Assembly: GCA_003599255.1 (NCBI GenBank)
Contig: QZJF01000005.1
Coordinates: 96,985 to 134,673 of the forward strand
Reading direction: 5' to 3'
Length of the DNA: 37,689 nucleotides
Source: a candidate division WWE3 bacterium
Lineage (GTDB): Bacteria; Patescibacteriota; WWE3; UBA101185; UBA10185
Numbering within the stretch: position 1 is the stretch's first letter; every line of letters begins with the position of its first letter. The notes under the pieces are model-generated. The model was not told the origin of the DNA. It saw only the letters and a program-made list of their open reading frames with translations, and searched no databases. A program made the translations under genes and the position numbers. Positions 1 through 15,039 of this stretch are shown one piece after another.

Positions 1-1165
1 ATGACTCTCTGGGGATCCTTTCCAGATTGTGATTTCTATCTACATATACCAGCCCGAATTTCGGCCAGTATCCCTGATGCCATTCATAATTGTCCAGTAA
101 AGACCAATAAAAGTAGCCTTTGACATTAACTCCTTGCTTCATAGCCCTGGCAGTTGAGCCTAACATGTCTTTGATGAACTTGATTCTGATTCTGTCTATC
201 TGATCCGCTACTCCGTTTTCGGTTATGTATATTGGCAAGTTATAACGTTTTAGCTTCAGAAGAACTTTTTCCAAGCCGGCGGGGTTTACCCACCATCCTA
301 GATCGCTTTGTACATCATCCACGTTATTTAAAAGAAGTTTTTTTAATCTTGTGGTGAAGTAATAGTTTAACCCTATGAGATCCATATATTTAGACATAGG
401 TTTCAAAAAGAGATCATCGTTTACATAATAAAGGACTTTACTGACAATGTTGTCGAAAAATCTGTACTTTCCGGGTGCGGGCTCAAACCACACTATGTTT
501 TTTACAACACCTACGGGATAGTCACCGACTGATTTTATTGCTTTATATGCCTTTATATGCGCCCGTGCCATGTTTGTTTGTATCATCATGGGTAGGAACA
601 GGTCTTCTTTATTAGGAGGCCAGATGCCCTTTACGTAGGCTTGAAATGCAAAAACGTCGGGTTCATTTATTGTAAGGTATACATCTATCAAATCCCCGAA
701 TTCCTCAGCGCATTTTTTTGCGTATTTTTCAAAGTGTGACGGAGCTCTTAAATTTGCCCATCCGGATTTTTTGGAAAACCACAATGGATTGGTAAAGTGA
801 TGAAGAGTAACAAAAGTCTTCAGGTTGCGGGATTTTGCTGCTTTCAGCACTTTCTTATAATGTTCAATTTCGTTTTGATCAAAAGTATCTTCGGAAGGTT
901 GAATTCTTGCCCATTCTACCGAAATTCTTATTGAATTATTGTTTAGTTTCACCGCCAGATCGAAATCTTCTTCATACCTGTTATAAGAATCGCAGGCAAT
1001 TCCGCAATGTTCTTTTGGAAATTCCTCGTCCGGCTTTTTGTTTTGCTCCCATTCGTACCAGTCGTTATTGGTTATGTTTCCCTCTGTTTGATAGGAAGAA
1101 GTAGCTGTTCCCCATATAAAGTCTTTGGGAAAAATAAAAGTTGAGGCCATAAGAAGAGTATACAT
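1..1165 (-). CDS. Glycoside hydrolase family 1 (beta-glucosidase-like), C-terminus cut by window edge
   Basis: This is a retaining beta-glycosidase of family GH1, which cleaves beta-linked sugars in the cytoplasm. About 388 residues are visible of the usual 430 to 470; the C-terminus lies before base 1. Family motifs are in order: the N-terminal FxWGTATSSYQTEG with sugar-binding Q26, the THHF-type segment near 120, the acid/base in TINEP (E168), the LNYY motif, and the nucleophile in YITENG (E316). Both catalytic glutamates are present, so it should be active. The start at 1165 is chosen because AGGTGG lies 4 nt upstream; a second in-frame ATG at 1150 would also do. It is divergent from the Nudix gene. 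Substrate (glucose, galactose, phosphorylated sugars) cannot be told. Family assignment is firm. Confidence 0.93.
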   Translation of the reverse strand, partial: MYTLLMASTFIFPKDFIWGTATSSYQTEGNITNNDWYEWEQNKKPDEEFPKEHCGIACDSYNRYEEDFDLAVKLNNNSIRISVEWARIQPSEDTFDQNEIEHYKKVLKAAKSRNLKTFVTLHHFTNPLWFSKKSGWANLRAPSHFEKYAKKCAEEFGDLIDVYLTINEPDVFAFQAYVKGIWPPNKEDLFLPMMIQTNMARAHIKAYKAIKSVGDYPVGVVKNIVWFEPAPGKYRFFDNIVSKVLYYVNDDLFLKPMSKYMDLIGLNYYFTTRLKKLLLNNVDDVQSDLGWWVNPAGLEKVLLKLKRYNLPIYITENGVADQIDRIRIKFIKDMLGSTARAMKQGVNVKGYFYWSLLDNYEWHQGYWPKFGLVYVDRNHNLERIPRES

Positions 1166-1191
1166 TATGCCACCTTTGGTAGAATACTCTT
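1154..1191. repeat. Inverted repeat in the divergent GH1/Nudix promoter region
   Basis: AAGAGTAT (1154-1161) is matched by ATACTCTT (1184-1191) with 22 nt between. It covers the start of the GH1 gene and a possible -10 box (TAGAAT, 1180-1185) for the Nudix gene. It could be an operator or an mRNA hairpin; nothing decides between them. Confidence 0.35.
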
Positions 1192-1228
1192 ACCGAATTC
1201 CGATTCCAAAAAATGAGAGGAGACTTAA

Positions 1229-1657
1229 GTGGACTATTACCTTGTGTTGCCGTTTGTTGTGGCACTGATAGAAGGGGAGCGAGGGGGAGTATTAATTGGC
1301 CAACATCCGTATCTTCCTACAAAATCGTATCCGGGCTACTGGGATCTTCCGGGAGGAAAACTTGAACCGGATGAAACTCCGGAACAATGTATCTGGAGGG
1401 AGATTCAGGAAGAATTGTGCGTTGAGCCGATTGCTCTTGCTCTATATGGCGTGTACCATCATGACCGAGGTCATTTTCTGCCGGAAATGCGCAATATGAT
1501 CCCCGGATTGGCTATTGCATACCGTGTCACTATAAACGGAGCAATTACCCCAATGGAGCAGATGAATGTTCATTATGCGTTTAGGGAAGAACTTATCAGA
1601 ATAGGGCCGCTCTCGACCCCCTGGATGAGGTTTTTTCTCAAAGATATGCTGAAATAA
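1229..1657 (+). CDS. Nudix (MutT-type) hydrolase
   Basis: A 142-aa Nudix hydrolase, a cytoplasmic enzyme family that cleaves nucleoside diphosphates linked to another group (damaged dNTPs, sugar nucleotides, dinucleotides). The Nudix box GX5EX7REUXEEXGU is seen as GGKLEPDE...REIQEELCV at about residues 42-64; all metal-binding glutamates are present, but the usual glycine near the end of the box is cysteine. WDLPGG precedes the box, as in MutT-like members. The start is GTG at 1229 with GAGAGGAG 6 nt upstream. The gene is alone and ends before a bidirectional terminator. The substrate cannot be predicted. Confidence 0.9.
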   Translation: MDYYLVLPFVVALIEGERGGVLIGQHPYLPTKSYPGYWDLPGGKLEPDETPEQCIWREIQEELCVEPIALALYGVYHHDRGHFLPEMRNMIPGLAIAYRVTINGAITPMEQMNVHYAFREELIRIGPLSTPWMRFFLKDMLK

Positions 1658-1677
1658 ATTAGGCATATTAAAACGAA

Positions 1678-1719
1678 AAACCCCTGTTTGGTCAGTGATA
1701 CCTCACAGGGGTTTCTTTT
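1678..1719. terminator. Bidirectional rho-independent terminator
   Basis: AAACCCCTGT (1678-1687) pairs with ACAGGGGTTT (1705-1714) around a 17-nt loop. It is followed by a T-run on the plus strand and, read the other way, by TTTTTCGTTTT. It sits between the convergent Nudix and 180-aa genes and serves both. Confidence 0.85.
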
Positions 1720-1720
1720 T

Positions 1721-2263
1721 TTATGACTCGATCCTTGCGTGGCGCACCTTCTCAAGGTACTCACGGAGTGGTTCGGGCTCGATTCGGGAGTGCTCTGCAT
1801 CGTAAAAGTACGTGTTACCCAATCCGATTCCGGCATAAGCTAAAAACGTACTTCCGACAAGCTTATACTCGCCGTTTTTACGTTTTGCTTCTGCTTTACC
1901 GAAGAATCGCCAATTCGGTTGGTTGTAATACCCATCCGAAATTGAGATTCTGGCACCTAGCGTAAAGCCACTGCAAGTTCCATCATCTTTTGACGGATTG
2001 TAAATGATAACCTCCATCCAGATGACCCTCACATCAAGCTTCACAGCATAGATTCGGTAAAAATACATCCCGACATGGTCCGATTGTTCGTCCAGCATGT
2101 TCGGAAAGCCATAGCTTTGCAGATCGTTTATCTGATGTGCATCGCTATCGACTGCCATCATACCCACGATTTCCAAAGGGTCTTTACCCAGTAGCGCCGA
2201 AAAAATTTGGACAGCGTCCATCATGTTTTTCCGACGGGTCCATGACCAAGGATACAGTTTCAT
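1721..2263 (-). CDS. Hypothetical protein, 180 aa
   Basis: I do not recognise this protein. It is soluble by composition, with no signal peptide or membrane segment, many aromatic residues (YxxQPNWRFFG, FYRIYAVKLDVRVIWMEVIIYNP) and a beta-rich pattern in the middle. The start ATG at 2263 has GGAAAGG 9 nt upstream, and a good promoter lies further up (TTTACT, 17 nt, TATAAT at 2376-2348). The roughly 80-nt leader can form GGGC-GAAAA-GCCC and AGCC-GTAAA-GGCT hairpins. It is divergent from an ABC exporter gene and the two promoters share a CTATAGGAC-type repeat, so it may be co-regulated with the exporter. That link is inference only. Confidence 0.72.
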   Translation of the reverse strand: MKLYPWSWTRRKNMMDAVQIFSALLGKDPLEIVGMMAVDSDAHQINDLQSYGFPNMLDEQSDHVGMYFYRIYAVKLDVRVIWMEVIIYNPSKDDGTCSGFTLGARISISDGYYNQPNWRFFGKAEAKRKNGEYKLVGSTFLAYAGIGLGNTYFYDAEHSRIEPEPLREYLEKVRHARIES

Positions 2264-2347
2264 TTCAATGTCCTTTCCGCTTTTCGCGTGAATAAGGGGC
2301 TTTTCGCCCTGAGGATTAAGTAGCCTTTACGGCTGTTGATGGCGTCC

Positions 2348-2376
2348 ATTATACTATAAGATAGGGGATAAGTAAA
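2348..2376 (-). promoter_or_regulatory. Sigma-70-like promoter of the 180-aa gene
   Basis: On the minus strand TTTACT (2376-2371), 17-nt spacer, then a perfect TATAAT (2353-2348). The predicted transcript starts near 2341, leaving a leader of about 78 nt. Confidence 0.65.
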
Positions 2377-2439
2377 CTATAGGACCTGTCAAATATTACA
2401 TATTTATCGGTTAACAAAATCCCTTGCACTGTCCTATAG
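2377..2439. repeat. Inverted repeat CTATAGGAC / GTCCTATAG shared by divergent promoters
   Basis: CTATAGGAC (2377-2385) is the reverse complement of GTCCTATAG (2431-2439). The right copy is part of a perfect 10-bp palindrome TCCTATAGGA (2432-2441), in the spacer of the rightward promoter; the left copy touches the -35 of the leftward promoter. The placement fits a pair of operators for one regulator, so far unidentified. Confidence 0.4.
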
Positions 2440-2452
2440 GATATGTTAATGT
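2424..2452 (+). promoter_or_regulatory. Candidate promoter for the ABC exporter leader
   Basis: TTGCAC (2424-2429), 17-nt spacer, TAATGT (2447-2452). Both boxes are imperfect, but the spacing is ideal and no better candidate precedes the leader. Transcription would start near 2459, giving a leader of about 250 nt before the ABC gene. Confidence 0.42.
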
Positions 2453-2479
2453 AAGTGTCTTGCCCGAAGAAATAGAAAG

Positions 2480-2593
2480 ATGACAGTAATAAAAAACAAA
2501 AACTTAATAGCCGTACAGACCGCCACCTCATTCAGTGAGGTTTCTCCGGTTACGTACAAATATTTGAAAAAAGGGAGGTTTAGGCCTAAATGA
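2480..2593 (+). CDS. Candidate 37-aa leader peptide of the ABC exporter mRNA
   Basis: A 38-codon frame from ATG 2480 to TGA 2591-2593 lies between the candidate promoter and a terminator. The peptide begins MTVIKNKNLIAV and ends with the basic stretch YLKKGRFRPK. A purine-rich AAGAAATAGAAAG precedes the start, only a weak ribosome site. Its last eight bases plus stop overlap GGCCTAAA, which can pair with the 3' arm of the terminator downstream; this is what one expects of a leader whose translation decides termination. It could also be chance: 37 codons without a stop is not rare. No homology is recognised. Confidence 0.35.
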   Translation: MTVIKNKNLIAVQTATSFSEVSPVTYKYLKKGRFRPK

Positions 2594-2625
2594 AGTGTTT
2601 TAAAAAATTCCGTTTAGCAGTCGAT

Positions 2626-2650
2626 ACCGACCTTTTAGGTCGGTTTTTTT
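2626..2650 (+). terminator. Terminator/attenuator hairpin before the ABC exporter
   Basis: ACCGACC (2626-2632), loop TTTTA, GGTCGGT (2638-2644), then a T-run (2644-2650). It lies inside the leader, about 57 nt before the ABC start, rather than at the end of any long gene. GGCCTAAA (2583-2590) can pair with TTTAGGTC (2634-2641), including one G-U pair, which would break this hairpin; the two folds exclude each other. Confidence 0.7.
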
Positions 2651-2706
2651 ATGCTCGTTAACAACTAAATATCAGAATTTCCGTTTCATATCGAAAGGAG
2701 AGGATC

Positions 2707-4461
2707 ATGAAAATGCTGAAGGATGTTCTATTTTTGCTTGGTGAATCAAGAAAACACTTGTATAGAATAGTAGTTTTCATATTCGCCATGGAGGTTGGTC
2801 GCGTCGCGGGCAACGAGTTTTTTGTGAGGTTAGTAGACAATGTTGTAGAAACCTCGCAAATCATGTGGGTGTTGATGTTTGGCTGGATAGGAGTCTCCCT
2901 CATAAATTGGTGGTTCGATGGAGGTGCTGATTACTACATAGTCAAAATGCTAGTCGGAGTGGAATATGTTGTCCCTCTAAGGTCTTTGAAGCACCTTGTC
3001 ACTCTGTCGATGAGATTTTTCAGCGACGCCGGGACAGGCAAAGTGGCCAAAAAGATTGAGCAGGGAGCGGACGGGCTTGCCAGGCTCTTGGAGTCGTTTA
3101 GCTGGGAAGTTGTAAGTTCTACTATCCAGATCACGGTTACAACAGTTTATCTGACTACCGTGTTGAAAGAGTGGGGGATAGTGTTGATTATCACGGCTGT
3201 GATATTCATTTGTCTAACACTATGGCTGGATAAGCTCAAGCGAGGACTCAGGAAACGCCGTTACGATTTGTATGAGATCTGCGGTCATCTGTTGTTTCAG
3301 ATCATGCAGAACATGGCGATCGTCAAAGCGTTTGCAAAGGAGGAAGCCGAAGTAACAAGATACGAGGCAGTTCGATCGGAAATTCACGATACATCTCTAA
3401 AGGAGTTCAGATATGAGATGTGGTTCAATATCCTGCGTGGATCTCTGATTTCTGTAACTTTGGGTGTGATTTTCTATCTAGGCGTCCGAGGCATTTCCGC
3501 CGGTGAAGTTAAGGTAGGAAGCATCGTCGGAGCAATGAACCTGGCAACAGCATCTTTGTTCTCACTCTTCCGTTTAACCAGAATCCTGATCAGATTCATG
3601 GATAATTACGAGGCTATTTCACGCACAGTTGAATTTCTGCGGGAAGTTCCGGATGTAATAGATGTACAGAATGCCATAGAAGTAAGCAGCCTCGCAGGAG
3701 ATGTGGTTTTTGATCATGTTCACTTTTCTTATGGACATGAGGGTGATAAAGATCGGGAATGTCTCGTTGATATAAGCTTTTCCGTTCCCGCTGGAAAGAC
3801 CGTGGCTATAGTGGGGCCTTCTGGAAGCGGAAAGACTACGCTAATAAGTTTGTTACTTCGTTTTATGGATCCCACTTCGGGTGTCATAAAAGTTGGTGGC
3901 CATGATATACGTATGTTGACTCAGTCTTCCTACCGTAAACATCTTTCGGTCGTTCTTCAGGACAGTTTATTGTTTGATAGGACGCTTGGAGATAATGTTG
4001 CCGGTGGTTTGGATGTTTCTGATTATACATATGTAGAAGATGACATCTGGGATGCTTTACATCAGGCCCACGCCGCAGATTTTGTTAAAACACTTCCCGG
4101 CGGAAAGGCATTAGGGACAATGATAGGGGAAAGAGGCGTTAAGTTGTCCGGAGGTCAGCGTCAACGTGTTGCCATAGCAGCTGCGCTTATCAGGAGGCCG
4201 GTAGTATTGGTACTCGATGAGGCAACAAGCAGTTTGGATACACAAAGTGAGCGTGCCATTCAGAAAGCAATGCGAAACCTTCAGAGCAAGGGAGAGACAA
4301 CAATCTTTGTGATTGCTCATAGACTGAGTACTGTCCGAGAAGCCGACATAATAATGGTTTTGAATGAGGGCAGGCTTGTACAGATGGGTTCACATGAGGA
4401 ATTACTTGGAGAGGAAGATGGACTGTATGCGCAGATGGTAGGTGTACAGAACGTCAACTGA
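2707..4461 (+). CDS. ABC transporter half-exporter (membrane domain fused to ATPase)
   Basis: A 584-aa half-transporter of the MsbA/LmrA/BmrA architecture, expected to dimerise in the cytoplasmic membrane and export a lipid, peptide or drug. The N-terminal 320 residues are an ABC type-1 membrane domain with about six helices. The C-terminal ATPase is complete: Walker A GPSGSGKT (370-377), Q-loop VVLQD, signature LSGGQ (480-484), Walker B VVLVLDEA with catalytic E505, and switch H538. The start at 2707 has AAAGGAGAGG just upstream. It is a single gene followed by its own terminator, so it probably works as a homodimer. The leader with a short frame and an internal terminator suggests induction by attenuation. 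The substrate is unknown. Confidence 0.93.
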   Translation: MKMLKDVLFLLGESRKHLYRIVVFIFAMEVGRVAGNEFFVRLVDNVVETSQIMWVLMFGWIGVSLINWWFDGGADYYIVKMLVGVEYVVPLRSLKHLVTLSMRFFSDAGTGKVAKKIEQGADGLARLLESFSWEVVSSTIQITVTTVYLTTVLKEWGIVLIITAVIFICLTLWLDKLKRGLRKRRYDLYEICGHLLFQIMQNMAIVKAFAKEEAEVTRYEAVRSEIHDTSLKEFRYEMWFNILRGSLISVTLGVIFYLGVRGISAGEVKVGSIVGAMNLATASLFSLFRLTRILIRFMDNYEAISRTVEFLREVPDVIDVQNAIEVSSLAGDVVFDHVHFSYGHEGDKDRECLVDISFSVPAGKTVAIVGPSGSGKTTLISLLLRFMDPTSGVIKVGGHDIRMLTQSSYRKHLSVVLQDSLLFDRTLGDNVAGGLDVSDYTYVEDDIWDALHQAHAADFVKTLPGGKALGTMIGERGVKLSGGQRQRVAIAAALIRRPVVLVLDEATSSLDTQSERAIQKAMRNLQSKGETTIFVIAHRLSTVREADIIMVLNEGRLVQMGSHEELLGEEDGLYAQMVGVQNVN

Positions 4462-4477
4462 GATGGAACATGAAGTA

Positions 4478-4518
4478 GGGCGCCGTTTATTGTTTTATAC
4501 AATCCGGCGCCCTTTTTT
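4478..4518 (+). terminator. Rho-independent terminator of the ABC exporter
   Basis: GGGCGCCG (4478-4485) pairs with CGGCGCCC (4505-4512), followed by TTTTTT (4513-4518). Confidence 0.88.
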
Positions 4519-4519
4519 A

Positions 4520-4774
4520 TTAAAGGAGAGAAAGAGAAGCCCCTGGTAATGAAAACAATAATGCTAAAGCAAATTCGACTGGCCAAAAAAGTCTGTTAAT
4601 TATCCATGGGATTGTGTATTCAATTCCTACCGGGCCGCACGCACCATAATCAAACGGGCAGTAATAAGCATTTTTTACAAAGAAAACCTGCAAAAAGATA
4701 CCTATTAACATATAAACCGTGAAAGCTAACAAACCGGTGCCGAAATCTACGAGAAATGTTTTATTTTTGTTCAT
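4520..4774 (-). CDS. Small membrane protein, 84 aa, unknown
   Basis: Not recognised. Two hydrophobic segments are visible: residues about 8-32 (LVDFGTGLLAFTVYMLIGIF) and about 58-82 near the C-terminus, joined by a loop with two cysteines (YYCPFDYGACGP). It has no enzyme motif. TACACT lies on the minus strand (4786-4781) exactly 6 nt before the ATG, the same leaderless arrangement seen at many genes here, which supports it as a real gene. It is convergent with the ABC exporter and downstream of the 105-aa gene's terminator, so it is a separate unit. Confidence 0.6.
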   Translation of the reverse strand: MNKNKTFLVDFGTGLLAFTVYMLIGIFLQVFFVKNAYYCPFDYGACGPVGIEYTIPWIINRLFWPVEFALALLFSLPGASLSLL

Positions 4775-4780
4775 GAATTA

Positions 4781-4786
4781 AGTGTA
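4781..4786 (-). promoter_or_regulatory. -10 box of a leaderless mRNA (84-aa gene)
   Basis: TACACT on the minus strand with 6 nt (TAATTC) before the ATG at 4774. Confidence 0.4.
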
Positions 4787-4789
4787 CAA

Positions 4790-4836
4790 AAAAGAGAAGA
4801 CCTCCGCTTGGGTTTTTATTCCAAATTGCGAAGGTC
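4790..4836 (-). terminator. Terminator of the 105-aa gene
   Basis: On the minus strand GACCTTCGC...TTGG pairs with CCAAGCGGAGGTC (arms within 4836-4799, a few mismatches), followed by TTCTCTTTTTT. Confidence 0.7.
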
Positions 4837-4863
4837 ATTTGATTGTCTTGTGATGCCGTGATT

Positions 4864-5181
4864 TTAGTAGTTAGCTGCCCAGTTTCCGGGGACTCCTACA
4901 AAAATCCGCGACACCTCAAACGGTATGTCACCAAAGAGCGGGGACAGGATACGGACAATCTCGTCCGAAGTGACGTTCGGGTTGTCCGTTTTCAGAATGA
5001 CTTCAACGTGACCGACATTGCACAGGTCGGTTGTACAACGTAACGTTTTGACGATGATGTCATTAGCTGCTACTCCGAGCGTGAAAAGGTCAACTGTTAA
5101 AGCATCGAGAATTTCATCGTACAATTCATTGACCTTTAAACCCAGCTCGAAGCTGGACGGATCAAACGTAAGATGTGCCAT
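4864..5181 (-). CDS. Hypothetical protein, 105 aa
   Basis: Not recognised. A small soluble protein beginning MAHLTFDPSSFELG and ending VGVPGNWAANY, predicted as alternating helix and strand (LYDEILDALTVDLF, then IIVKTLRCTTDL, HVEVILKT, SDEIVRILSPLF). It has two cysteines seven residues apart (C49, C54 region) and no known motif. It has an excellent expression signal: TTTACA-17-TATAAT promoter, AAGGAGAG ribosome site 4 nt before the ATG, and its own terminator. It is therefore very probably expressed well, alone. The length and overall pattern loosely recall a tautomerase/MIF-sized domain, but the N-terminal proline those enzymes need is absent, so I do not assign that. Confidence 0.72.
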   Translation of the reverse strand: MAHLTFDPSSFELGLKVNELYDEILDALTVDLFTLGVAANDIIVKTLRCTTDLCNVGHVEVILKTDNPNVTSDEIVRILSPLFGDIPFEVSRIFVGVPGNWAANY

Positions 5182-5224
5182 TTTCTCTCCTTATGTCTTA
5201 TTTGAGTTCTTCGAATATGCCGTA

Positions 5225-5253
5225 ATTATAACAAAAAATGGTCTTTCTGTAAA
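5225..5253 (-). promoter_or_regulatory. Strong promoter of the 105-aa gene
   Basis: On the minus strand TTTACA (5253-5248), 17-nt spacer, TATAAT (5230-5225) with an upstream TG (TGTTATAAT). It is one of the best matches to the sigma-70 consensus in the window. Confidence 0.72.
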
Positions 5254-5299
5254 TAGCTATAGGCTTTTAGTCCGTGCTTTCACTTTTTACGAAATTGCA

Positions 5300-5305
5300 T
5301 ATAAT
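5300..5305 (+). promoter_or_regulatory. -10 box of a leaderless mRNA (pcm)
   Basis: TATAAT with 8 nt before the ATG at 5314; transcription would start at or next to the start codon. Confidence 0.6.
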
Positions 5306-5313
5306 CAGGATGT

Positions 5314-5892
5314 ATGTACATTTCAAAAACTGTATCGGAGGCCATGAAACGCGTGGACCGAAAAGATTTTGTTGGTCAGGTACACGAACCGTCAGCTTAC
5401 GTTGACGCTCCATTACCAATAGGTTACGGACAGACCATCTCACAACCTACTACAGTTGGAATCATGTTAACAATGTTGGAATTGGCGCCGGGAATGAAAG
5501 TCCTTGAAGTAGGATCTGGCTCCGGGTGGGTAGTAGCTTTAATTTCTCATATTGTCGGAAACTCAGGTGAAGTTATTGGAGTGGAAAGGATTCCCAAATT
5601 AGTGGAGCTGGGAAAAAAGAATATTGAAAAATATTGTAGGGATAAAAATGTTGCAATTTACAATACTGAGAAGGAAATCGGGTATCAACCGCGCGGACCA
5701 TATGACAGGATAATCGTTTCTGCCTCTTCTACCAGTCTCCCTACAGAATTAGTTTACCAACTTAAAACGGAGGGGATCATGATTATTCCTATATTGTACT
5801 CGATCTGGAAAGTTATGAAGAAATCCGACGATCCGGAGGATATCATAAAGCAGGAATACCCTGGTTTTGTTTTTGTACCATTGGTATATTAA
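5314..5892 (+). CDS. pcm: Protein-L-isoaspartate O-methyltransferase
   Basis: A 192-aa SAM-dependent methyltransferase that starts repair of isoaspartyl residues in aged proteins, in the cytoplasm. Seen in order: the N-terminal VSEAMKRVDRKDFV, the family hallmark PLPIGYGQTISQP (about 34-46), SAM-binding motif I VLEVGSGSGW (about 63-72), the acidic residue of motif II in GVERIPKLV, and YDRIIVSAS (motif III region). It is slightly shorter than the usual 205 to 215 residues at the C-terminus. ATG 5314 is chosen because it keeps the conserved N-terminus and follows TATAAT by 8 nt; the ATG at 5344 after GGAGG would delete conserved residues. Confidence 0.93.
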   Translation: MYISKTVSEAMKRVDRKDFVGQVHEPSAYVDAPLPIGYGQTISQPTTVGIMLTMLELAPGMKVLEVGSGSGWVVALISHIVGNSGEVIGVERIPKLVELGKKNIEKYCRDKNVAIYNTEKEIGYQPRGPYDRIIVSASSTSLPTELVYQLKTEGIMIIPILYSIWKVMKKSDDPEDIIKQEYPGFVFVPLVY

Positions 5893-5908
5893 AGTTTTAG
5901 GACGGGGT

Positions 5909-5914
5909 TATAAT
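5909..5914 (+). promoter_or_regulatory. -10 box of a leaderless mRNA (90-aa gene)
   Basis: TATAAT with 7 nt before the GTG at 5922, and no ribosome-binding sequence. Confidence 0.55.
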
Positions 5915-5921
5915 AATCTAG

Positions 5922-6194
5922 GTGATTAAGAAAATATTAAAATTTTTAGGTTATACCACGCTGCTTTTTGTAATGATACTTTTCTTTTATCCCAAACCTG
6001 CAGTTTCTTTTCCCGAAGGGGGATGGATACCTGGTATACAAAGCGAAGGATATGTATGCGAATGTTTAGGGTACAGGACTCCGCTTGTTGAATATATAGA
6101 TATGGGAAAGGGCTACAAAGAAGAATTGCGTATGTTAGCAAAGTGTTACGGTATTCCTTATCACTGTGCAGATTACGATGAGAACGTCGAATAG
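5922..6194 (+). CDS. Small secreted or membrane-tethered protein, 90 aa
   Basis: Not recognised. Residues 1-27 are a basic-hydrophobic signal sequence or anchor (KKILKFLGYTTLLFVMILFFY), followed by a 60-residue exported part with four cysteines (CECLG, KCYGIPYHC), which could form disulfides or bind metal. No lipobox cysteine follows the hydrophobic stretch. It uses a GTG start right behind a TATAAT box. Its stop codon lies 2 nt before the left repeat of the mobile element, so before the insertion this gene would have run convergently into tRNA-Trp. Confidence 0.62.
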   Translation: MIKKILKFLGYTTLLFVMILFFYPKPAVSFPEGGWIPGIQSEGYVCECLGYRTPLVEYIDMGKGYKEELRMLAKCYGIPYHCADYDENVE

Positions 6195-6196
6195 TC

Positions 6197-6203
6197 TGGC
6201 AGG
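6197..6203 (+). repeat. Left attachment-site core (attL), TGGCAGG
   Basis: TGGCAGG is identical to 14489-14495, which is the 3' end of tRNA-Trp read on the other strand (CCTGCCA). It lies between the end of the 90-aa gene and the ribosome site of the first element gene. The identity stops after exactly 7 bp on both sides, as expected for a short recombinase core. Confidence 0.65.
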
Positions 6204-6255
6204 CACTAGTTGATTATGTCGGGAACTTCTATGCAAGTAGCAATCTGGAGGTGAG

Positions 6256-8310
6256 ATGCTAAAAGTACTTTATAAATATCTCCAGTTGAGGTATATATGG
6301 GTTAAGCCAACAAGGTTAACTAAAATGATAAGCACAAAGCAGTTAATTACATTAAACCTAAAATACGGTACTGAGACAAAGCCTCTAAAAGATGTTGCAT
6401 TTGCCCAGTTAGTGTCAAAAGCCTTATATTTAGCGGACTCCCCATTATCGCAAAAACAAATAGCAGTAAAAGTAAAAGAGCTTCTTGGTATTCAAAAAGT
6501 TACGAGGAGCAATATTGTCGGTGGTTTAACCTATCTTAAAGATGAGGGTAAGGTAACAGAAAAAAATGCCGGCATGTGGGAGTTGACATTAAGGGAGAGG
6601 AGCAATATTGAATCTAATCTTAATACTGACCAACACTTGATGGAGGATGTCATAGAAAGGCATTTTCCATCAGATATCGATAAAAAAATAATACGGGAGT
6701 GGTTTATAGATGCAGCGACTGATTTCTTTGGTCATTTTGGCGATGAGTTGGTAACTTCAATAACGAAGAATACTAAAACTAGACCAAAGGATCTAAAAGA
6801 GTTGCTTAAGCCTTCTATTAACAAATACTCATTACTTGCTAACTCATTAGAATTAGAAAAAGGTTTTGTTGACTTTATTTCTTGTGACGACGATAGGGAT
6901 AAACAATACTTCATGCAGCTTATTTATGCTATGTTTTCTGCAAGGTTAGTAGCAGCTGACCTTGGTTACGACCCTATAGCTGTAGATGAAGTGAAAAATG
7001 CTACACTTGTATTAGACACTAACGTTTTATTTGTTCTAGCATTAGAACGCCATAAATCAGCAAAAGCCTTAAAAGCTGTAATCAACACATTAAATAAACT
7101 TGGCTCCCGAGTCGTATATTTGGACTGTACGAGGCAAGAATACTCTAGAGCTGTATCTCATGTTAAAAAAAGTACACTTGAAATAGTTAATTATGGTTAT
7201 CCGTGGGAGGTTCTAGTTAATACGACAGACTCCTTTATGAGAACAGCTATAAAGCGTGGGTGTTCAAAAGAAGAACATTTTAATGAGTTTTTCAGAAGCA
7301 TTATGTCCGTCCCAGATACATCCGAGTTTGGTTTTTCGTTAAGTTTTGAGGCCGATGCTGTAACTGAAGAAGTATCTAAAAAAGCTGAGAATGATAAAGG
7401 TATGCAAGCAAAAATCCAAGACTTTAATACGAGATACGGTTCAAAGCTCAGGGAATATCCAATAAAGTCGCCCTCATCACTGATCCACGATGCCACACTT
7501 ATACACGTTTGCGACGCTAAGAGAAAAGAAGGCGAAAAGTACTGGGTTCTAAGTTTGGACAGGTCCTTGCAAATGTATGCAGTTAATAACACAAATCCAC
7601 ACGGTGTCTCCACGGTGATTTCACTTGATATCCTAGTTCAGGTATTAGCTTTGAATACGACGGCTGGAGCCGTTGATTCAAATGAGTTTGCTCCATTCTT
7701 AGCCATTATGATGTTGAATGAGTGTCTTCCCACGCAAGGTGCTTATAGTATGGTTGACTTAAAAACCATGGCACAGATAAGTGATGAGGTTAAAATATTA
7801 CCCCCAGCAAATATTGATAGATTAGTAGACATAGTTAAAAAAGCACGATTTGCAGGTAAACCAATAGATAGTAGCCAGTTCCTAGTTAGTTTTAATAGGG
7901 CATTACAGACTGAGAAAGAGAATGTTGGAGAAGAACTTAGAAAAGCACATGAGACAATTGAAAGTTATAAAGTTGATTTGGACAAAGAAAAAGAAAAATC
8001 CCTAAAAGTTACTTCTTATTTACAGGATGACCACAAGTCAAAGTTATCTCGTCGTTATTTAAGAGATTTAGTTATCAAAATCCTTATATCAATAATAATA
8101 GGCTTAGTGATAGGAACACCTATTCTTGTATTTTTGCCGAAAGTACTTGGTGAGGCATATGAGGCATACATTTTTCTTGTTACTACGGTTCCTGTATTCG
8201 CATCTGCTTTGTGGATTATTCCAAAATCAGTCAAGACTTACAAAGCTTCAATGGCAAGGATTGAAACAGAGGCTCAAAAGGAAGTTACGGAAAGTATATC
8301 CGGAAAGTGA
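6256..8310 (+). CDS. PIN-domain nuclease-like protein with C-terminal membrane anchor, 684 aa
   Basis: A multidomain protein not matching a named family I know. Residues about 45-110 look like a winged helix (SPLSQKQIAVKVKELLG...LTYLKDEGKV). Residues about 250-445 carry a PIN-like nuclease signature: VLDTN (D254), TRQE (E295), HDATL (D412) and LSLDRS (D435), the acidic set that binds Mg2+ for RNA or DNA cleavage. A helical linker (about 560-600, charged, coiled-coil-like) leads to two membrane helices (about 606-627 and 634-656) and a short charged tail. The nuclease would therefore hang on the inner face of the membrane. GGAGGTGAG lies directly before ATG 6256. It forms a unit with the next membrane gene (12-nt gap). 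The integrated form shows no promoter within the element. Confidence 0.75.
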   Translation: MLKVLYKYLQLRYIWVKPTRLTKMISTKQLITLNLKYGTETKPLKDVAFAQLVSKALYLADSPLSQKQIAVKVKELLGIQKVTRSNIVGGLTYLKDEGKVTEKNAGMWELTLRERSNIESNLNTDQHLMEDVIERHFPSDIDKKIIREWFIDAATDFFGHFGDELVTSITKNTKTRPKDLKELLKPSINKYSLLANSLELEKGFVDFISCDDDRDKQYFMQLIYAMFSARLVAADLGYDPIAVDEVKNATLVLDTNVLFVLALERHKSAKALKAVINTLNKLGSRVVYLDCTRQEYSRAVSHVKKSTLEIVNYGYPWEVLVNTTDSFMRTAIKRGCSKEEHFNEFFRSIMSVPDTSEFGFSLSFEADAVTEEVSKKAENDKGMQAKIQDFNTRYGSKLREYPIKSPSSLIHDATLIHVCDAKRKEGEKYWVLSLDRSLQMYAVNNTNPHGVSTVISLDILVQVLALNTTAGAVDSNEFAPFLAIMMLNECLPTQGAYSMVDLKTMAQISDEVKILPPANIDRLVDIVKKARFAGKPIDSSQFLVSFNRALQTEKENVGEELRKAHETIESYKVDLDKEKEKSLKVTSYLQDDHKSKLSRRYLRDLVIKILISIIIGLVIGTPILVFLPKVLGEAYEAYIFLVTTVPVFASALWIIPKSVKTYKASMARIETEAQKEVTESISGK

Positions 8311-8322
8311 TATCGATAAAAT

Positions 8323-8865
8323 ATGGATTTTGATAAATACATACTTTGGCAAATGGAACAGGACAGTAAGTTAAGAGACGAGGTCGGGCACACCTATTTC
8401 CAAGCACAATTGAATAACCTAAACAAGTTAAGGGATTTAGTTGTACATATGACAACAATATCCGCCGGAATAATAGGATTCACCATACCAGTGTTTGGTA
8501 GCAGTACTCTTGTTAAAACACCTGCTCTTCTGATTGGAGGATTGCTGGAGTTACTGGTTCTAACAACTTACGGTATATGGTATCTAAAGTGGATATTGGA
8601 GACCGAAAACCGTGATTTAACCCTTCAACACAGGAAATACAACGAAGTTGTAGATTCTATACGGGATTCTCACTTAAAAACCTTTGAAAATCCTACTGAA
8701 AAATCATTTCAGCATCAACAGGAAGTGGGGGAGGAAGTTATGAAGGCACTCATTGCTGACCCCGTTAAGGATAAAAGAGACTACGCTTTAGACATTCTTT
8801 TTATCGCATTTACTTTGGGCCTTCTTCTAATAATACTGTCTTTGGTTCCCGTTAAAGTTGGATAG
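8323..8865 (+). CDS. Three-helix membrane protein, partner of the PIN gene
   Basis: A 180-aa unknown membrane protein. The N-terminal 40 residues are charged and helical, then come two adjacent membrane helices (about 42-62, TTISAGIIGFTIPVFG; and about 66-88, LLIGGLLELLVLTTYGIWYL), a roughly 65-residue cytoplasmic helical region rich in charges, and a third helix (about 155-176, LDILFIAFTLGLLLIILSLV). The paired helices with a cytoplasmic helical arm resemble in layout the small membrane effectors found with defence nucleases or sensors, but no family can be named. It starts 12 nt after the PIN gene and its 3' end overlaps the converging 372-aa gene by 14 nt. Confidence 0.72.
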   Translation: MDFDKYILWQMEQDSKLRDEVGHTYFQAQLNNLNKLRDLVVHMTTISAGIIGFTIPVFGSSTLVKTPALLIGGLLELLVLTTYGIWYLKWILETENRDLTLQHRKYNEVVDSIRDSHLKTFENPTEKSFQHQQEVGEEVMKALIADPVKDKRDYALDILFIAFTLGLLLIILSLVPVKVG

Positions 8866-9970
8866 GGTATGTACCACTAATCCGGTCGTCTATACCCTCT
8901 TGTTTCAACCGGTGTGTGTCACCGTCCGACTTTATGATAACTTCAATCTTTAACTTGCCGTCCGTACTGTTATTATCCTGCTCTTGTACCTTGTATAGAA
9001 AATAGCCCTTTTCTGTAAACCCCTCGTTTTCAGGTCTCTTTTCCGAGTAGTATTTGTTAAACATACCCGAGTTTGAGCTAAACTTGTAAAACATTTTTCT
9101 TTCTACTAAATCCTGTGTTCCCACTCCTATGAAAATGTAATCTCCAACTTTAAGAGGGGTAGGAAAGTCATTATTATTGAAAGTTTCGATGCCAGAGTAT
9201 TTGTTGTACTCAGATAACTTAGTCTCATTGCCGTGGTCGTCTGATAAATAAGTGATGATTGGATAAGGTTCCGTGTCTTCATAGCTTTCGGTGACTTCTG
9301 GATTGCCTCCCCAAAAATCTTTGAACAACCCCGTAAGTGTTGGTTTGTATTTTGAGATTGCGATATTATCAAGTTCTTCATAGGGCGGATTTAGCTCTAT
9401 TTTGTTGTCAATATTGAACTGTGTGTTATTTTGGCTAAGTTGATTCCATTCATCTATGAGGGCCGGGTAGGTCTTTTGACTGTAGTTATTCCACTCTTCG
9501 TCAGACATTTCTTGCTGTTCGTATAAACGCATTTTAGCTATATAATCTTCTTCAATGTCAACTAACTTTAGTTTTTCAGATAATCTTTTGTCTAATAGTT
9601 CCGTAAGTTTTGACCATACCCTTGGGTTAGTGTTTTTAGCTTCTGTGGTAAGTTCTACGGACTTTTTAAGGTTGGTGTTGAGGTTATCTTCGAATAACCT
9701 AACTACTTCATGACCTTCCGGTGACCTTATGAGGGCGTGACTATACATCTCTTCGACAGCTAAACTCTTTGTTGTATACAACGTGGCATAATCATAGGCT
9801 TTATGCAGCAGATTTCTCGTATGCTCAATATCATTGAACACCAAGTCTTGTTTGTAGTTATCAAATGCAATGATTAAAGTAACACCAAAGCCTAATACTC
9901 CCAAAAATAGGCAAGATAGTAAAAATGGCACAACTATTTTTCTTGTTAACTTTAGTAGAGTTTGAACCAT
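8852..9970 (-). CDS. Membrane-anchored protein with large extracellular region, 372 aa
   Basis: Not recognised. One N-terminal membrane helix (about 12-37, VVPFLLSCLFLGVLGFGVTLIIAF) is followed by a roughly 330-residue domain: first helical and charged (about 40-190; EDYIAKMRLYEQQEMSDEEW), then beta-rich with a motif-like VGDYIFIGVGTQDLVE near 275 and GYFLYKVQEQD near 320. No catalytic signature is seen. The layout recalls a sensor domain without its signalling output. It overlaps the end of the upstream 137-aa gene by 19 nt, so the two are translated together. The gene is convergent with the PIN/three-helix unit. Confidence 0.7.
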   Translation of the reverse strand: MVQTLLKLTRKIVVPFLLSCLFLGVLGFGVTLIIAFDNYKQDLVFNDIEHTRNLLHKAYDYATLYTTKSLAVEEMYSHALIRSPEGHEVVRLFEDNLNTNLKKSVELTTEAKNTNPRVWSKLTELLDKRLSEKLKLVDIEEDYIAKMRLYEQQEMSDEEWNNYSQKTYPALIDEWNQLSQNNTQFNIDNKIELNPPYEELDNIAISKYKPTLTGLFKDFWGGNPEVTESYEDTEPYPIITYLSDDHGNETKLSEYNKYSGIETFNNNDFPTPLKVGDYIFIGVGTQDLVERKMFYKFSSNSGMFNKYYSEKRPENEGFTEKGYFLYKVQEQDNNSTDGKLKIEVIIKSDGDTHRLKQEGIDDRISGTYPIQL

Positions 9971-10365
9971 AAATCATCGACTTTTTCTTGTACGTCATTT
10001 AGCTTGCTCTCTAGGTTTGATATATCCCTCTGAATACGGCCTATTTCTCCGTTTATATCATTTTCCATAAGTGGTGCATCAAGTGTATTTTCAATAGAGT
10101 CTAGAGTATCACCGATTTTATCTATTTCCAGATTGTAGTAGAGAGATGAGTTTATATTTTCTACCTTCCTTAACCTAATATTAGTATCTATAAGCAAAGC
10201 AGCTAAGGCAACAAACACAACGATTAAAACCTTATTTCTTGCCAGATAAGGCAGTACCAGTGATTTATATGGAATTGATATTTTATTCATAAATCCCGCC
10301 ATACAAAGTAAAAACGATAATGTTATGGCATCTGTGCCATAGAGCCATTTTGGCATAAAAGCCAT
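9952..10365 (-). CDS. Membrane protein with C-terminal coiled coil, 137 aa
   Basis: Not recognised. Two hydrophobic segments (about 10-27, GTDAITLSFLLCMAGFM; and about 43-62, NKVLIVVFVALAALLI) are followed by a 70-residue coiled coil (IDKIGDTLDSIENTL...GEIGRIQRDISNLESKL), probably cytoplasmic or periplasmic depending on topology. It is first in a two-gene unit with the 372-aa protein. ATG 10365 begins 16 bp from the divergent XRE regulator; an in-frame ATG at 10356 is an alternative. Its 5' end contains a cluster of GCCATA-type half-sites, so it is probably the regulator's target. Confidence 0.68.
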   Translation of the reverse strand: MAFMPKWLYGTDAITLSFLLCMAGFMNKISIPYKSLVLPYLARNKVLIVVFVALAALLIDTNIRLRKVENINSSLYYNLEIDKIGDTLDSIENTLDAPLMENDINGEIGRIQRDISNLESKLNDVQEKVDDLWFKLY

Positions 10366-10393
10366 AATCAGACAAGAACTTATGACTATGGCA
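10324..10393. promoter_or_regulatory. Cluster of TATGGCA/TGCCATA half-sites at the divergent XRE promoter
   Basis: A perfect inverted repeat, TATGGCA-TCTG-TGCCATA, lies at 10324-10341. Related half-sites follow: AGCCATT (10343-10349), TTGGCAT (10350-10356), AGCCATA (10360-10366) and TATGGCA (10387-10393). About six half-sites in 70 bp spanning both start codons suggest operator sites for the adjacent XRE protein. The sites lie partly within coding sequence, so the repeat is not imposed by an intergenic terminator. Confidence 0.5.
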
Positions 10394-10582
10394 ACACTTT
10401 ATGAAAAAGTAGGAATTAATATAAAATACTACAGAAAGAAACTGGGTTTATCTCAAGAACAATTAGCTTTTAAGGCAAAAATCGATATGACTAGTGTAAG
10501 TGAAACTGAAAGCGGGTTACGAAATACTTCTCTTAAAACAATCGCTAAACTTGCAAAAAGCATTAAATATAGAGCCTTTTGA
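10382..10582 (+). CDS. XRE-family helix-turn-helix regulator, frameshifted near its C-terminus
   Basis: A 66-aa single-domain transcriptional regulator of the Cro/C1 type. The DNA-binding fold is clear: GINIKYYRKKLGLSQEQLAFKAKIDMTSVSETESG then LKTIAKLAKSI. The annotated frame ends abnormally in KYRAF. One base less in the run of five A's at 10555-10559 would give ALNIEPFELLK and a stop at 10593-10595, which is the standard ending of this family. The gene therefore carries a +1 insertion, from real mutation, sequencing or assembly error, or slippage. All five helices needed for DNA binding are mostly present, so the short product might still bind. It is divergent from the membrane pair and probably represses it. 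Confidence 0.85.
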   Translation: MTMATLYEKVGINIKYYRKKLGLSQEQLAFKAKIDMTSVSETESGLRNTSLKTIAKLAKSIKYRAF

Positions 10583-10595
10583 GCTACTAAAGTGA

Positions 10596-10864
10596 TAGAT
10601 TACTACCTCAGTCAATATGGGATTTTGTTTGTTATTCCAGTGTTCTATACAAATACAACATAAAAAATAAAAAATGGCAGAGAAAGTATATGGATTACAT
10701 ACTTTTTGACCTGTGTATCCTTTTTTTACAACTGTTATTTTTCACAAAAAGTGTGAGGATACAACATTCATAACTATAAGGGGTGGATCAAACTGGAGCT
10801 ACCCGTACCCTATATACCTCTGTATCGAAATAAGTATTAGAATAAGCCCAGTAGAGCAACTATT
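10596..10864. other. AT-rich intergenic stretch with nested inverted repeats
   Basis: No gene is seen. TGTATCC (10714-10720) pairs with GGATACA (10757-10763), and inside it TCACA-AAAAG-TGTGA (10742-10756) forms a small hairpin. GTATATGGATTACATAC (10686-10702) is also partly palindromic. TAGAAT at about 10838-10843 is a possible -10 for the next gene but lies 21 nt from its ATG. The function of the repeats is unknown; a replication or recombinase accessory site is possible. Confidence 0.4.
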
Positions 10865-11797
10865 ATGATTACTGTTTCATCAGAGGATATTGAATACCTT
10901 GAGAAATCAAGGAGCGATTTCCTAGAACAACTGAAGATTAAAAATAACGACTTGTTATTTGGCGTAGGTGACTTAGTTGTAGAAGTAATAAAGCCATTAT
11001 CCAAAGGAACAGTGGTAGAAAACAAAACAGATTTCTTATTGGAAATACTCGCTTACGTAGCGGGGGTAGAGTATGTGACTTTGAATAAGCTTTCGATACT
11101 CAAGTTCGATACAGATATAAAAGCCACTAAATATAAGGCTTTTTTAGATATTAGGTCCGCTTTAGGCTACGGAACAATAAAAATCAATAAAAAACTGCTT
11201 AAAACCTTGATGTATTACAAAGACCAAGCTGAAAGTATGAACTGTCTTTCTGACTGGTGTCACGACGAGGCCAACAGGATACAAAGGAAATATCAAATCC
11301 CGATAGATGCGTTGCAGAAGTTACCGGAAGCTATTTACGAGATTATTTTGGAGTTTCTGAAAGATAAACAAACACTTACTAATGGAGAAGAGATGTATAT
11401 AGCGTTTCTAAATGATAGTATCGATATTGCTTTGACGAGGTTTTCCGAAGATTTAGGATTGATTCCAATTACACTTTACAGTTTGCGAGCGAAAACTCCC
11501 AAGGGCATTAAAAACACTTATTGTAGATACTGTCACAACTCTATAAACAGGGGAGACGCAGGAGATTATTGCACAAAAAGAGGCAATCGGGTCTGTTTTG
11601 AGCAGAATGTTGGAAGTAGAACAAAGAGGAAATCTACAAATGAGCTGGTTTTTATTAACACAAAAGATAAGGTGTGCGTCTCATGCGGAATACCACTTGA
11701 ATATAATGTTTGCCGTATAGTAGGCGATAAGCTATTGTGTAAAAAACCTCAATGTTACGAGAGATTAAAATACAAGAGCAAAAAACTAAAGAGATAA
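10865..11797 (+). CDS. Cysteine-rich (zinc-finger-like) element protein, 310 aa
   Basis: Not recognised. The first 210 residues are helical and charged, without membrane segments. The C-terminal third has two cysteine clusters: CRYCHN (C220, C223) continuing into DYCTKRGNRVCF, and CVSCG (C271, C274) continuing into LLCKKPQC (C292, C297), each suited to bind one zinc ion. The last residues are strongly basic (KYKSKKLKR), which suggests nucleic-acid binding. It is not a resolvase, primase or helicase by any motif visible. It is the first of a row of four plus-strand genes that lead to the recombinase, so a role in element maintenance is the simplest guess. Confidence 0.65.
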   Translation: MITVSSEDIEYLEKSRSDFLEQLKIKNNDLLFGVGDLVVEVIKPLSKGTVVENKTDFLLEILAYVAGVEYVTLNKLSILKFDTDIKATKYKAFLDIRSALGYGTIKINKKLLKTLMYYKDQAESMNCLSDWCHDEANRIQRKYQIPIDALQKLPEAIYEIILEFLKDKQTLTNGEEMYIAFLNDSIDIALTRFSEDLGLIPITLYSLRAKTPKGIKNTYCRYCHNSINRGDAGDYCTKRGNRVCFEQNVGSRTKRKSTNELVFINTKDKVCVSCGIPLEYNVCRIVGDKLLCKKPQCYERLKYKSKKLKR

Positions 11798-11859
11798 GAA
11801 GATTCCCCAAAAACGTGCCTTAGCGATTGATGCATATTCTTCTATGAGATGCTGAAAAC

Positions 11860-12075
11860 ATGGAAAAACCAGTTTTCACACTAGATGAAGTTAAAGCACT
11901 CAAGATATTAGGACTCTTTGATTCTGAGATATCCCTTATATCCTATATTAGAACTCTAAAATGGGGTTCTGTTGAAATAACTGTCCAAAACTCTGAGCCT
12001 GTATTCGCAAAATCAGCTTATCAAACAATTAAGTTTGCTTCCGGTCAAGGAAGGGTATCAAGTGAACACGGATAA
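11860..12075 (+). CDS. Small DUF2292-like protein, 71 aa
   Basis: A short protein with the pattern of DUF2292-type proteins found beside mobile genes: a helix, then LKWGSVEITVQNSEPVF followed by a strand ending in IKF. In that family the core reads roughly YGSIEIxIxDGKxxxI. Function is unknown. There is no good ribosome site before ATG 11860. The last 14 nt overlap the next gene, whose ribosome site (AAGGAAGGG) lies inside this gene, so the two are translationally linked. The family assignment rests on a short pattern only. Confidence 0.6.
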   Translation: MEKPVFTLDEVKALKILGLFDSEISLISYIRTLKWGSVEITVQNSEPVFAKSAYQTIKFASGQGRVSSEHG

Positions 12076-12244
12076 CCAATTGACTTGGTTAACAGAGGAG
12101 TTGTGTGACAAGATTAGGGTCGTTTTTGAGCCTAAATACGGACATTTACTTAGTGATAATGAAGTTTACGATATAGCAAATAATCTAGTTTCGTTTTTAG
12201 AGCTAATACTGAAAAACAGAGGTGCTCAATATGAAGGGAAATAG
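12062..12244 (+). CDS. Small conserved recombinase-neighbour protein, 60 aa
   Basis: The protein has the pattern LTEELCDKIRVVFEPKYGHLLSDNEVYDIANNLVSFLELI: an FEPxYGxxLxDxEVxxIAxNL core that I associate with small unnamed proteins encoded next to recombinases in mobile elements; the biochemical role is not known. GTG 12062 is chosen because AAGGAAGGG sits 6 nt upstream; an upstream TTG at 12035 would add nine residues without a ribosome site. It overlaps the gene before by 14 nt and the gene after by 14 nt, so it belongs to one operon. Confidence 0.65.
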   Translation: MNTDNQLTWLTEELCDKIRVVFEPKYGHLLSDNEVYDIANNLVSFLELILKNRGAQYEGK

Positions 12245-12887
12245 ACGAGGTTATACATCATTTTCAAACGATTCTCTACGTGAGGGTTACCTCCCAGACC
12301 ACCTTTTTAGATTTAGGGCCATTATGGAATCTCATTTAGGTTCTGCAGGTAGAGCAGTTGTAAAGTTAGAAACTATAGCATATGAGATGGGTAAAAACAG
12401 AAGAGCTGCAGAGCGTGCGAAGAAGTGGTTCCTTCGGAACTCTAATCTGCAAGCAAAAAAGCGTGGGTATTTATATGAGTTCTACACAGAACCAGACAGG
12501 AGTGTCTTATATGGTCAGACTCGTGTGTCGCATGTCGTAGTACACCCAGATACCTTTACAAAAATAACAAAAGAAAAAGACTTATATAAAAACCCTAAAG
12601 AGGTTTTTTCAAATAAGTGGGAAAAGAGTGGAAAACCTCCAGAGTTAAGTGGTGAAGAAAAGGTGTTAGTGGAAAACATAGTTAAATGGGTAATGAACCC
12701 GATGTTTAAAACGTGGTTACCAGAAAAGGTTGAGAAGTACAGAGCTATTGGTGCCATTCGCAAATATGGCTATGCGGCGATTTTAAAAATATATAAAGAG
12801 GAGGCAGAGTGGGGACTTTCTCCGCATCCCAAGCCGTTTTGGGAACGTATAAAGGAGTTGGACAATATGGCACAGACGCCAAAATAG
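12231..12887 (+). CDS. Helix-turn-helix protein, possible replication or partition initiator, 218 aa
   Basis: Residues about 20-85 look like a winged helix or HTH (FRFRAIMESHLG...VKLETIAYEMGKNRRAAERAKKWFLRNSNL), a layout seen in plasmid and phage replication or regulatory proteins that bind DNA; the rest is helical with a conserved-looking WGLSPHPKPFWERI near the end. No named family can be assigned. ATG 12231 has AGAGGTG 6 nt upstream; the GTG at 12222 is less likely. It overlaps the previous gene by 14 nt. Its own 3' end lies just before the recombinase promoter. Confidence 0.62.
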   Translation: MKGNRRGYTSFSNDSLREGYLPDHLFRFRAIMESHLGSAGRAVVKLETIAYEMGKNRRAAERAKKWFLRNSNLQAKKRGYLYEFYTEPDRSVLYGQTRVSHVVVHPDTFTKITKEKDLYKNPKEVFSNKWEKSGKPPELSGEEKVLVENIVKWVMNPMFKTWLPEKVEKYRAIGAIRKYGYAAILKIYKEEAEWGLSPHPKPFWERIKELDNMAQTPK

Positions 12888-12889
12888 TA

Positions 12890-12895
12890 TATAAT
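12890..12895 (+). promoter_or_regulatory. -10 box of the recombinase promoter
   Basis: TATAAT; the transcript would begin around 12901-12903, that is, at the first base of the folded leader described next. The -35 region is poor. Confidence 0.55.
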
Positions 12896-12900
12896 TAAAG

Positions 12901-12987
12901 TGTACCCAACTTAATAGAATCGCTATTTTAATGGCCGTCTCAGTCAACTTGAAGCGATTCTTGTTGGGTACAACTGGGGCGGCCATT
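12901..12987 (+). ncRNA. Pseudoknotted 5' leader RNA of the serine recombinase mRNA
   Basis: Three sets of long complementary segments lie within 87 nt. TGTACCCAAC (12901-12910) pairs with GTTGGGTACA (12963-12972), 10 bp. GAATCGC (12917-12923) pairs with GCGATTC (12954-12960), 7 bp, stacked inside the first. AATGGCCG (12930-12937), in the loop, pairs with CGGCCATT (12980-12987), 8 bp, beyond the outer stem, which makes an H-type pseudoknot. No T-run follows, so it is not a terminator. The fold begins at the predicted transcription start and ends 22 nt before the recombinase ATG. It could be a ligand- or protein-sensing leader, or a recombinase/accessory DNA site made of inverted repeats. No known riboswitch class was recognised. 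Confidence 0.6.
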
Positions 12988-13009
12988 TAATTGCTTTAAA
13001 AGGAAAAAT

Positions 13010-14521: not shown

Positions 14522-14562
14522 CGGTTTTGGAGACCGCTGTACTACCACTGTACGACACCCCT
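14489..14562 (-). tRNA. tRNA-Trp (CCA anticodon)
   Basis: The acceptor stem AGGGGTG pairs with CACCCCT. The anticodon stem GCGGT/ACCGT carries loop CTCCAAA with anticodon CCA. The T-arm is GAGGG-TTCGATT-CCTTC. The 3' end G-CCA is encoded. The 3' end is the integration site of the element, and the recombinase frame overlaps it by 33 nt. Confidence 0.95.
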
Positions 14563-14585
14563 AAAATCCTGCTTTTTAAATACTC

Positions 14586-14661
14586 TGGAGCCCACTCGCG
14601 GAATCGAACCGCGGACCACTTCCTTACCATGGAAGTGCTCTACCAACTGAGCTAAGTGGGC
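14586..14661 (-). tRNA. tRNA-Thr (GGT anticodon)
   Basis: Acceptor GCCCACT/AGTGGGC; anticodon stem CTTCC/GGAAG with loop ATGGTAA, anticodon GGT; T-arm CGCGG-TTCGATT-CCGCG; discriminator T and CCA encoded. Confidence 0.95.
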
Positions 14662-14679
14662 ACTTTCCTTTATTATTTA

Positions 14680-14765
14680 TGGTGCCGAGGGAGGGATTCG
14701 AACCCCCGAAGGCATACGCCAGCTGATTTACAGTCAGCTCCAGTTGGCCACTTTGGTACCTCGGC
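14680..14765 (-). tRNA. tRNA-Tyr (GTA anticodon)
   Basis: Acceptor GCCGAGG/CCTCGGC; anticodon loop CTGTAAA with anticodon GTA; a long variable arm (86 nt in total), as is usual for bacterial tRNA-Tyr; T-arm GGGGG-TTCGAAT-CCCTC; A-CCA encoded. Confidence 0.95.
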
Positions 14766-14790
14766 AAGAATCAACAATCACGTAATTTTA

Positions 14791-14865: not shown

Positions 14866-14938
14866 GAACGAAGTGAGACAGAGGTGTGCACCGCAGACAC
14901 TCCGGCGCGACAGCTCGCCACTCCCGATGTGCTGGATT

Positions 14939-14944: not shown

Positions 14945-14971
14945 TCATGCGCTAAGTATTATAAAAACATA

Positions 14972-15002: not shown

Positions 15003-15039
15003 TGACACCCGAATTGTTCAGAAAAGGAGAGTAAAGCTT

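Follow-up and report, generated by a model that had tools for sequence, protein, structure and literature searches.

A gap of 443 nt separates two divergently oriented genes in the stretch of DNA analyzed here (37.7 kb, hereafter the window), which is part of contig 2 of a genome of 1.10 Mb in 25 contigs whose relatives are themselves small genomes. The contig is assigned to its lineage because the top match of a cell-wall gene further along the window, 71% identical, belongs to the same genus. The sizes of these genomes would fit a placement in the candidate phyla radiation. On the minus strand, the gap is flanked by a gene of unassigned family, and on the plus strand by an ABC exporter, whose domains bear out the identification made in an earlier note on this DNA (Table 1). 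The exporter is a single half-transporter and lacks the two-gene make-up of bmrCD, and the next gene recognized by Pfam on its 3′ side codes for a PCMT methyltransferase. Further downstream, at 6256-9970, three neighboring genes (684, 180, and 372 aa) have no match in Pfam, NCBIfam, PHROGs or PADLOC.

The leader and the exporter are apparently carried by an integrated element, of which positions 1-14521 of the window would constitute the right end. Positions 1-14000 have no DNA match in a genome of the same genus (G001), positions 14488-28000 match this genome at 68-87%, and the match breaks at the 3′ end of a tRNA-Trp gene located beside the gene of a large serine recombinase; the left end of the apparent element was not found. 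Such a location is a likely reason why the searches described below returned no close relative of the exporter. The surroundings of the exporter promoter region also contain an inverted repeat, CTATAGGAC and GTCCTATAG, that includes two copies of CCTATAG, the most enriched heptamer in the intergenic DNA of the genome (28 observed vs. 5.6 expected). CTATAG was considered as a promoter-spacer element and rejected, as it showed no enrichment beside −10-like sites relative to other hexamers.

Table 1. Features discussed in the text, with their positions in the window.
Feature	Positions	Strand	Basis or details
Divergent gene	1721-2263	-	family unassigned
Inverted repeat, first arm	2377-2385		CTATAGGAC
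Weak promoter-like site, TTGCAC-17-TAATGT	2424-2452	+	PWM scan
Inverted repeat, second arm	2431-2439		GTCCTATAG
Leader frame 1, 37 codons, MTVIKNKNLIAVQTATSFSEVSPVTYKYLKKGRFRPK	2480-2593	+	length, gene-like codons, weak SD
Hairpin I, within frame 1	2513-2557	+	-16.4 kcal/mol for 2510-2560, z -3.4
Predicted antiterminator hairpin, takes terminator 5′ arm	2569-2636	+	MFE pairs; parameter-dependent
GGGAGG, ribosome-binding-like site of frame 2 and antiterminator strand	2573-2578	+	SD scoring
Pairing segment of the earlier note, GGCCTAAA	2583-2590	+	partner TTTAGGTC at 2634-2641; 8 bp, one G-U
Frame 2, 23 codons	2590-2661	+	begins on frame 1 stop (ATGA), crosses terminator; strong SD
Intrinsic terminator, 8-bp stem, 3-nt loop, T run	2626-2650	+	terminator scan
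ABC half-exporter	2707-4461	+	584 aa; PF00664 and PF00005; strong SD
Large serine recombinase	13010-14521
tRNA-Trp gene	14489-14562
Cell-wall gene	19986-21875		top match 71% identical, same genus

The gap contains an intrinsic terminator, already proposed in the earlier note and confirmed by a terminator scan: the stem ACCGACCT-TTT-AGGTCGGT at 2626-2644 is followed by TTTTTT, the hairpin is computed at −11.5 kcal/mol, and it counts among the genome's stronger terminators. Its stem lies 62 nt 5′ of the start codon of the exporter and 362 nt away from the divergent gene; it therefore lies within the 300 nt of a gene, and nearer to that gene than to the upstream one, that define the position of ABC-leaders. 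Since the gap is divergent, there is no known upstream gene whose transcript the terminator would end; it is most simply read as premature, and anatomy and position together make it likely that transcription of the exporter is attenuated in some way. Among 54 divergent gaps of the same genome (~400 kb), four terminator-like hairpins lie inside the gap facing a gene, counts that are approximate because gene calling relied on a simple script; two of the four are weak, one is the terminator of the exporter leader, and the last, a strong hairpin on contig 4, was discarded as a parallel case, as it sits among unannotated tRNA genes. Strong terminators so placed are accordingly very rare in the rest of the genome portion covered. 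A further strong hairpin, at 16854 of contig 1, overlaps the start of a divergent gene. The ~400 kb of unmasked background comprised most of contigs 1 and 2, where 17 kb of contig 2 were N, together with 20-kb stretches of contig 3 and of contig 4.

Upstream of the terminator, the promoter postulated in the earlier note corresponds to a recognizable but weak site, the score of which in the PWM scan is equalled by 22% of shuffles and which is absent from the list returned by a consensus scan. Transcription starting past the terminator, which would have spoken against attenuation, finds no better candidate: on the 3′ side of the terminator the top score is 2.8, a value reached by 90% of shuffles. 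The 37-codon frame (frame 1) announced in the same note is present and looks coding, judging from its sequence: its length exceeds chance expectation (P = 0.0125 in dinucleotide shuffles of 2452-2626), and its codon usage falls at the 37th percentile among equally long pieces of real genes from this genome (P = 0.03 vs. stop-free shuffles). Its ribosome-binding site is weak, the end of the peptide is very basic, and its stop codon, TGA at 2591-2593, is located 32 nt before the terminator stem. Codons 5-7 code for KNK, which matches the Arg/Lys-X-Arg/Lys rule for arrest by macrolides and ketolides (PMC8298421), a match expected within the first ten residues of 27% of shuffled peptides.

A second frame, overlooked in the earlier note, is in frame with the exporter but stops at 2659-2661. 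Its ribosome-binding site is matched by only 1.2% of random ATGs, and a frame with a strong Shine-Dalgarno sequence crossing the terminator is found in 0.25% of shuffles. On the other hand, the 11-nt spacing of this site is long, the predicted antiterminator would sequester it, and the codons of frame 2 are not gene-like (1.6th percentile of real genes). The chance tests on both frames and on the terminator were picked after looking at the sequence, and their values are to be read as leads rather than proofs.

How the leader could govern its terminator was addressed by computed folds, which represent equilibrium and ignore kinetics. The earlier note had proposed that the end of frame 1 pairs with the terminator loop and 3′ arm. 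The helix between GGCCTAAA and TTTAGGTC does exist, with 8 bp and one G-U as described, but it is at chance level, as a helix of at least 8 bp with the terminator occurs in 72% of shuffled leaders, or in 16% when confined to 2560-2600, and the probability of its pairs in the computed ensemble is 0.0. The predicted antiterminator is a different hairpin, composed of the pairs 2569-2574/2631-2636, 2577-2579/2626-2628, and 2583-2596/2607-2622. With the Turner 2004 parameters, the probability of the terminator is 0.02-0.27 without a ribosome vs. 0.98-1.0 once a ribosome occupies the stop codon of frame 1, and equally strong suppression of the terminator is seen in only 1.7% of shuffled leaders. The Langdon 2018 parameters mostly agree with Turner 2004. 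Under Turner 1999 and Andronescu 2007, however, the terminator is for the most part the prevailing fold even when no ribosome is present (0.63-0.99), so that a clear switch appears in two of the four energy parameter sets and the modeled switch is not robust across them. The liberation of the terminator by a ribosome at the frame 1 stop is, by contrast, a robust prediction, returned by all four energy models. The claim that a ribosome finishing the frame leads to termination is therefore borne out by the models in its outcome and altered in its means, which would be the disruption of the antiterminator at 2569-2636 instead of the pairing originally proposed. The complementary claim, that a ribosome stalled earlier lets the exporter be transcribed, survives in part: readthrough is predicted for a stall within about the first nine codons, whereas under Turner 2004 a ribosome at codons 11-17 favors termination, because hairpin I, once opened, has a 3′ arm free to pair with the GGGAGG segment. 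As a consequence, only a failure to initiate or an arrest in approximately the first nine codons would switch the exporter on.

Conservation of the leader was sought at several taxonomic depths. No leader homologue was found in genomes of the family, of the class or among 379 genomes of the phylum, where DNA matches were limited to chance-level stretches of 18-44 nt; a match in one genome (G006) was dismissed as a homologue, as it covers only the terminator. Likewise, no orthologue of the exporter above about 40% identity was detected in 27 genomes of the family and order, the 379 phylum genomes, GTDB contigs, plasmids or viral contigs, the best identity in the 379 phylum genomes being 35-38%. 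A search of Rfam returned no riboswitch or leader family above the gathering score at 2300-2800, and tRNAs only over the whole window. The leaders of ~43 readable exporters from elsewhere in the phylum were also examined for attenuators. Two (L049 and L052) were set aside as containing only the terminator of the preceding gene, and another (L103) as having only a weak hairpin. In one genome (G212; L043, L111), a promoter, a 49-codon frame and a terminator precede the exporter. At ~1800-2200 of L111 (minus strand), the promoter-like site has TTGACA, part of the frame is rich in glycine (MVTNENILKQLQLGGLPGG...), and the terminator is computed at −23 kcal/mol. This leader was rejected as support for a switch, with a terminator probability of 1.0 and no antiterminator, and its 49-codon frame may instead be the gene of a peptide.

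The best explanation of the locus, which we advance tentatively and with somewhat less than even confidence, is ribosome-controlled attenuation through frame 1 and the modeled antiterminator at 2569-2636. A leader transcript would run from ~2459 to 2650 and end in the premature intrinsic terminator, as anatomy and position suggest. A ribosome reaching the frame 1 stop would cover ~2576-2605 and break the antiterminator, upon which the terminator would form and the exporter would be off; because the stop lies 32 nt before the stem, a ribosome bound there would cover the antiterminator but not the terminator. Hairpin I and the antiterminator would fold if translation failed to initiate or if the ribosome stalled in approximately the first nine codons; the antiterminator would then occupy the 5′ arm of the terminator, and RNA polymerase would continue into the exporter. 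A plausible signal would be a drug or a shortage that slows ribosomes, although its identity is a guess.

Several other readings of the same features deserve consideration. The terminator could act without any control by ribosomes, either by constantly damping expression of the exporter or in response to a protein or ligand that binds the leader, with hairpin I as the sensor. This is possible, if on the unlikely side: two of the four energy models form the terminator largely irrespective of the ribosome, hairpin I is unusually stable, and sensors are unidentified for most of the ABC-leaders shown in a published survey (PMC2965389), but Rfam recognizes no known riboswitch or leader here, and frame 1 has the look of a coding sequence, with its stop at a suitable distance from the stem. 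Frame 1 could instead be an independent small gene with a terminator of its own, whose product is either its RNA or a basic peptide that is perhaps secreted, in which case the exporter would be expressed by readthrough or would export the product. The gene-like codons and very basic end of frame 1 agree with such a gene, as does the G212 exporter (L111), which likewise lies behind a 49-codon frame and a strong terminator unrivalled by any antiterminator; still, in the absence of a recognized precursor motif, of a modification gene nearby and of any DNA-level homologue of the stretch among the sequences searched, we regard this as rather unlikely.

The role of ribosomes might also be the reverse of that proposed above, should those that initiate on frame 2 at 2590 trail the polymerase and block the terminator, so that active translation raises expression of the exporter. 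The overlap of frame 2 with the frame 1 stop (ATGA), its GGGAGG site and its passage across the terminator, a combination seen in as few as 0.25% of shuffles, point in this direction, and the terminator of bmrB is likewise found within the leader frame (PMC4191407). The codon usage of frame 2, at only the 1.6th percentile of real genes, the long spacing of 11 nt and the location of the site inside the predicted antiterminator nonetheless render this scheme quite unlikely. Both frames might even be combined into a single ribosome sensor, carried by an integrated mobile element of a small-genome, probably candidate-phyla bacterium, in which completion of frame 1 would favor termination and re-initiation on frame 2 through the terminator would favor readthrough, the exporter thereby tracking the state of translation; we consider this elaboration improbable. 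Lastly, an open frame and a hairpin followed by a T run could have arisen side by side in AT-rich intergenic DNA with no regulatory role at all. The 8-bp pairing is indeed at chance level and neither a leader homologue nor a close relative of the exporter was found in the collections searched, yet several features each have a probability below 5% by chance, in tests picked after looking, and the terminator is among the genome's stronger ones, which makes sheer coincidence improbable.

If ribosome-controlled attenuation through frame 1 were confirmed, ribosome-sensing attenuation of drug-type exporters, known from Firmicutes, would be extended to an uncultured small-genome lineage, in which gene regulation is little studied (PMC11665869). 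A full-text search of one literature collection found no paper combining candidate phyla radiation, attenuation and leader peptide. Among the systems to which the locus can be compared, pyrBI of E. coli exemplifies antitermination by a coupled ribosome, with a leader frame that runs through the terminator; frame 2 likewise does so here but has no gene-like codons. In a genome survey, no family had more attenuator candidates in absolute terms than the ABC transporters, with 205 (Naville and Gautheret, 2010; PMC2965389). These ABC-leaders share with the present one a premature terminator and a possible antiterminator 5′ of an ABC transporter gene, but those shown are conserved between species, whereas no relative of the exporter leader was found in the genomes searched here. 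The bmrCD genes of B. subtilis, induced by lincomycin, erythromycin, and chloramphenicol, are controlled by ribosomes translating bmrB, inside which the terminator lies (PMC4191407), in keeping with the earlier note, which had cited them as an example of a translation-dependent leader in Firmicutes. Both loci have a short frame and an intrinsic terminator 5′ of an ABC exporter, together with an alternative antiterminator fold, which here is predicted to exclude the terminator under Turner 2004 and mostly under Langdon 2018, but not under the other two parameter sets. Membership in the bmrB type nevertheless fails on the position of the terminator and on the make-up of the exporter: the terminator is within the coding region of bmrB, whereas here it is located 32 nt past frame 1 (2626-2650, beyond the stop ending at 2593) and inside frame 2 only, and the exporter consists of two proteins there (bmrC and bmrD) and of one half-exporter here. 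The switch, if real, would introduce no new principle and would join the kind of leaders represented by the ABC-leaders and bmrB.
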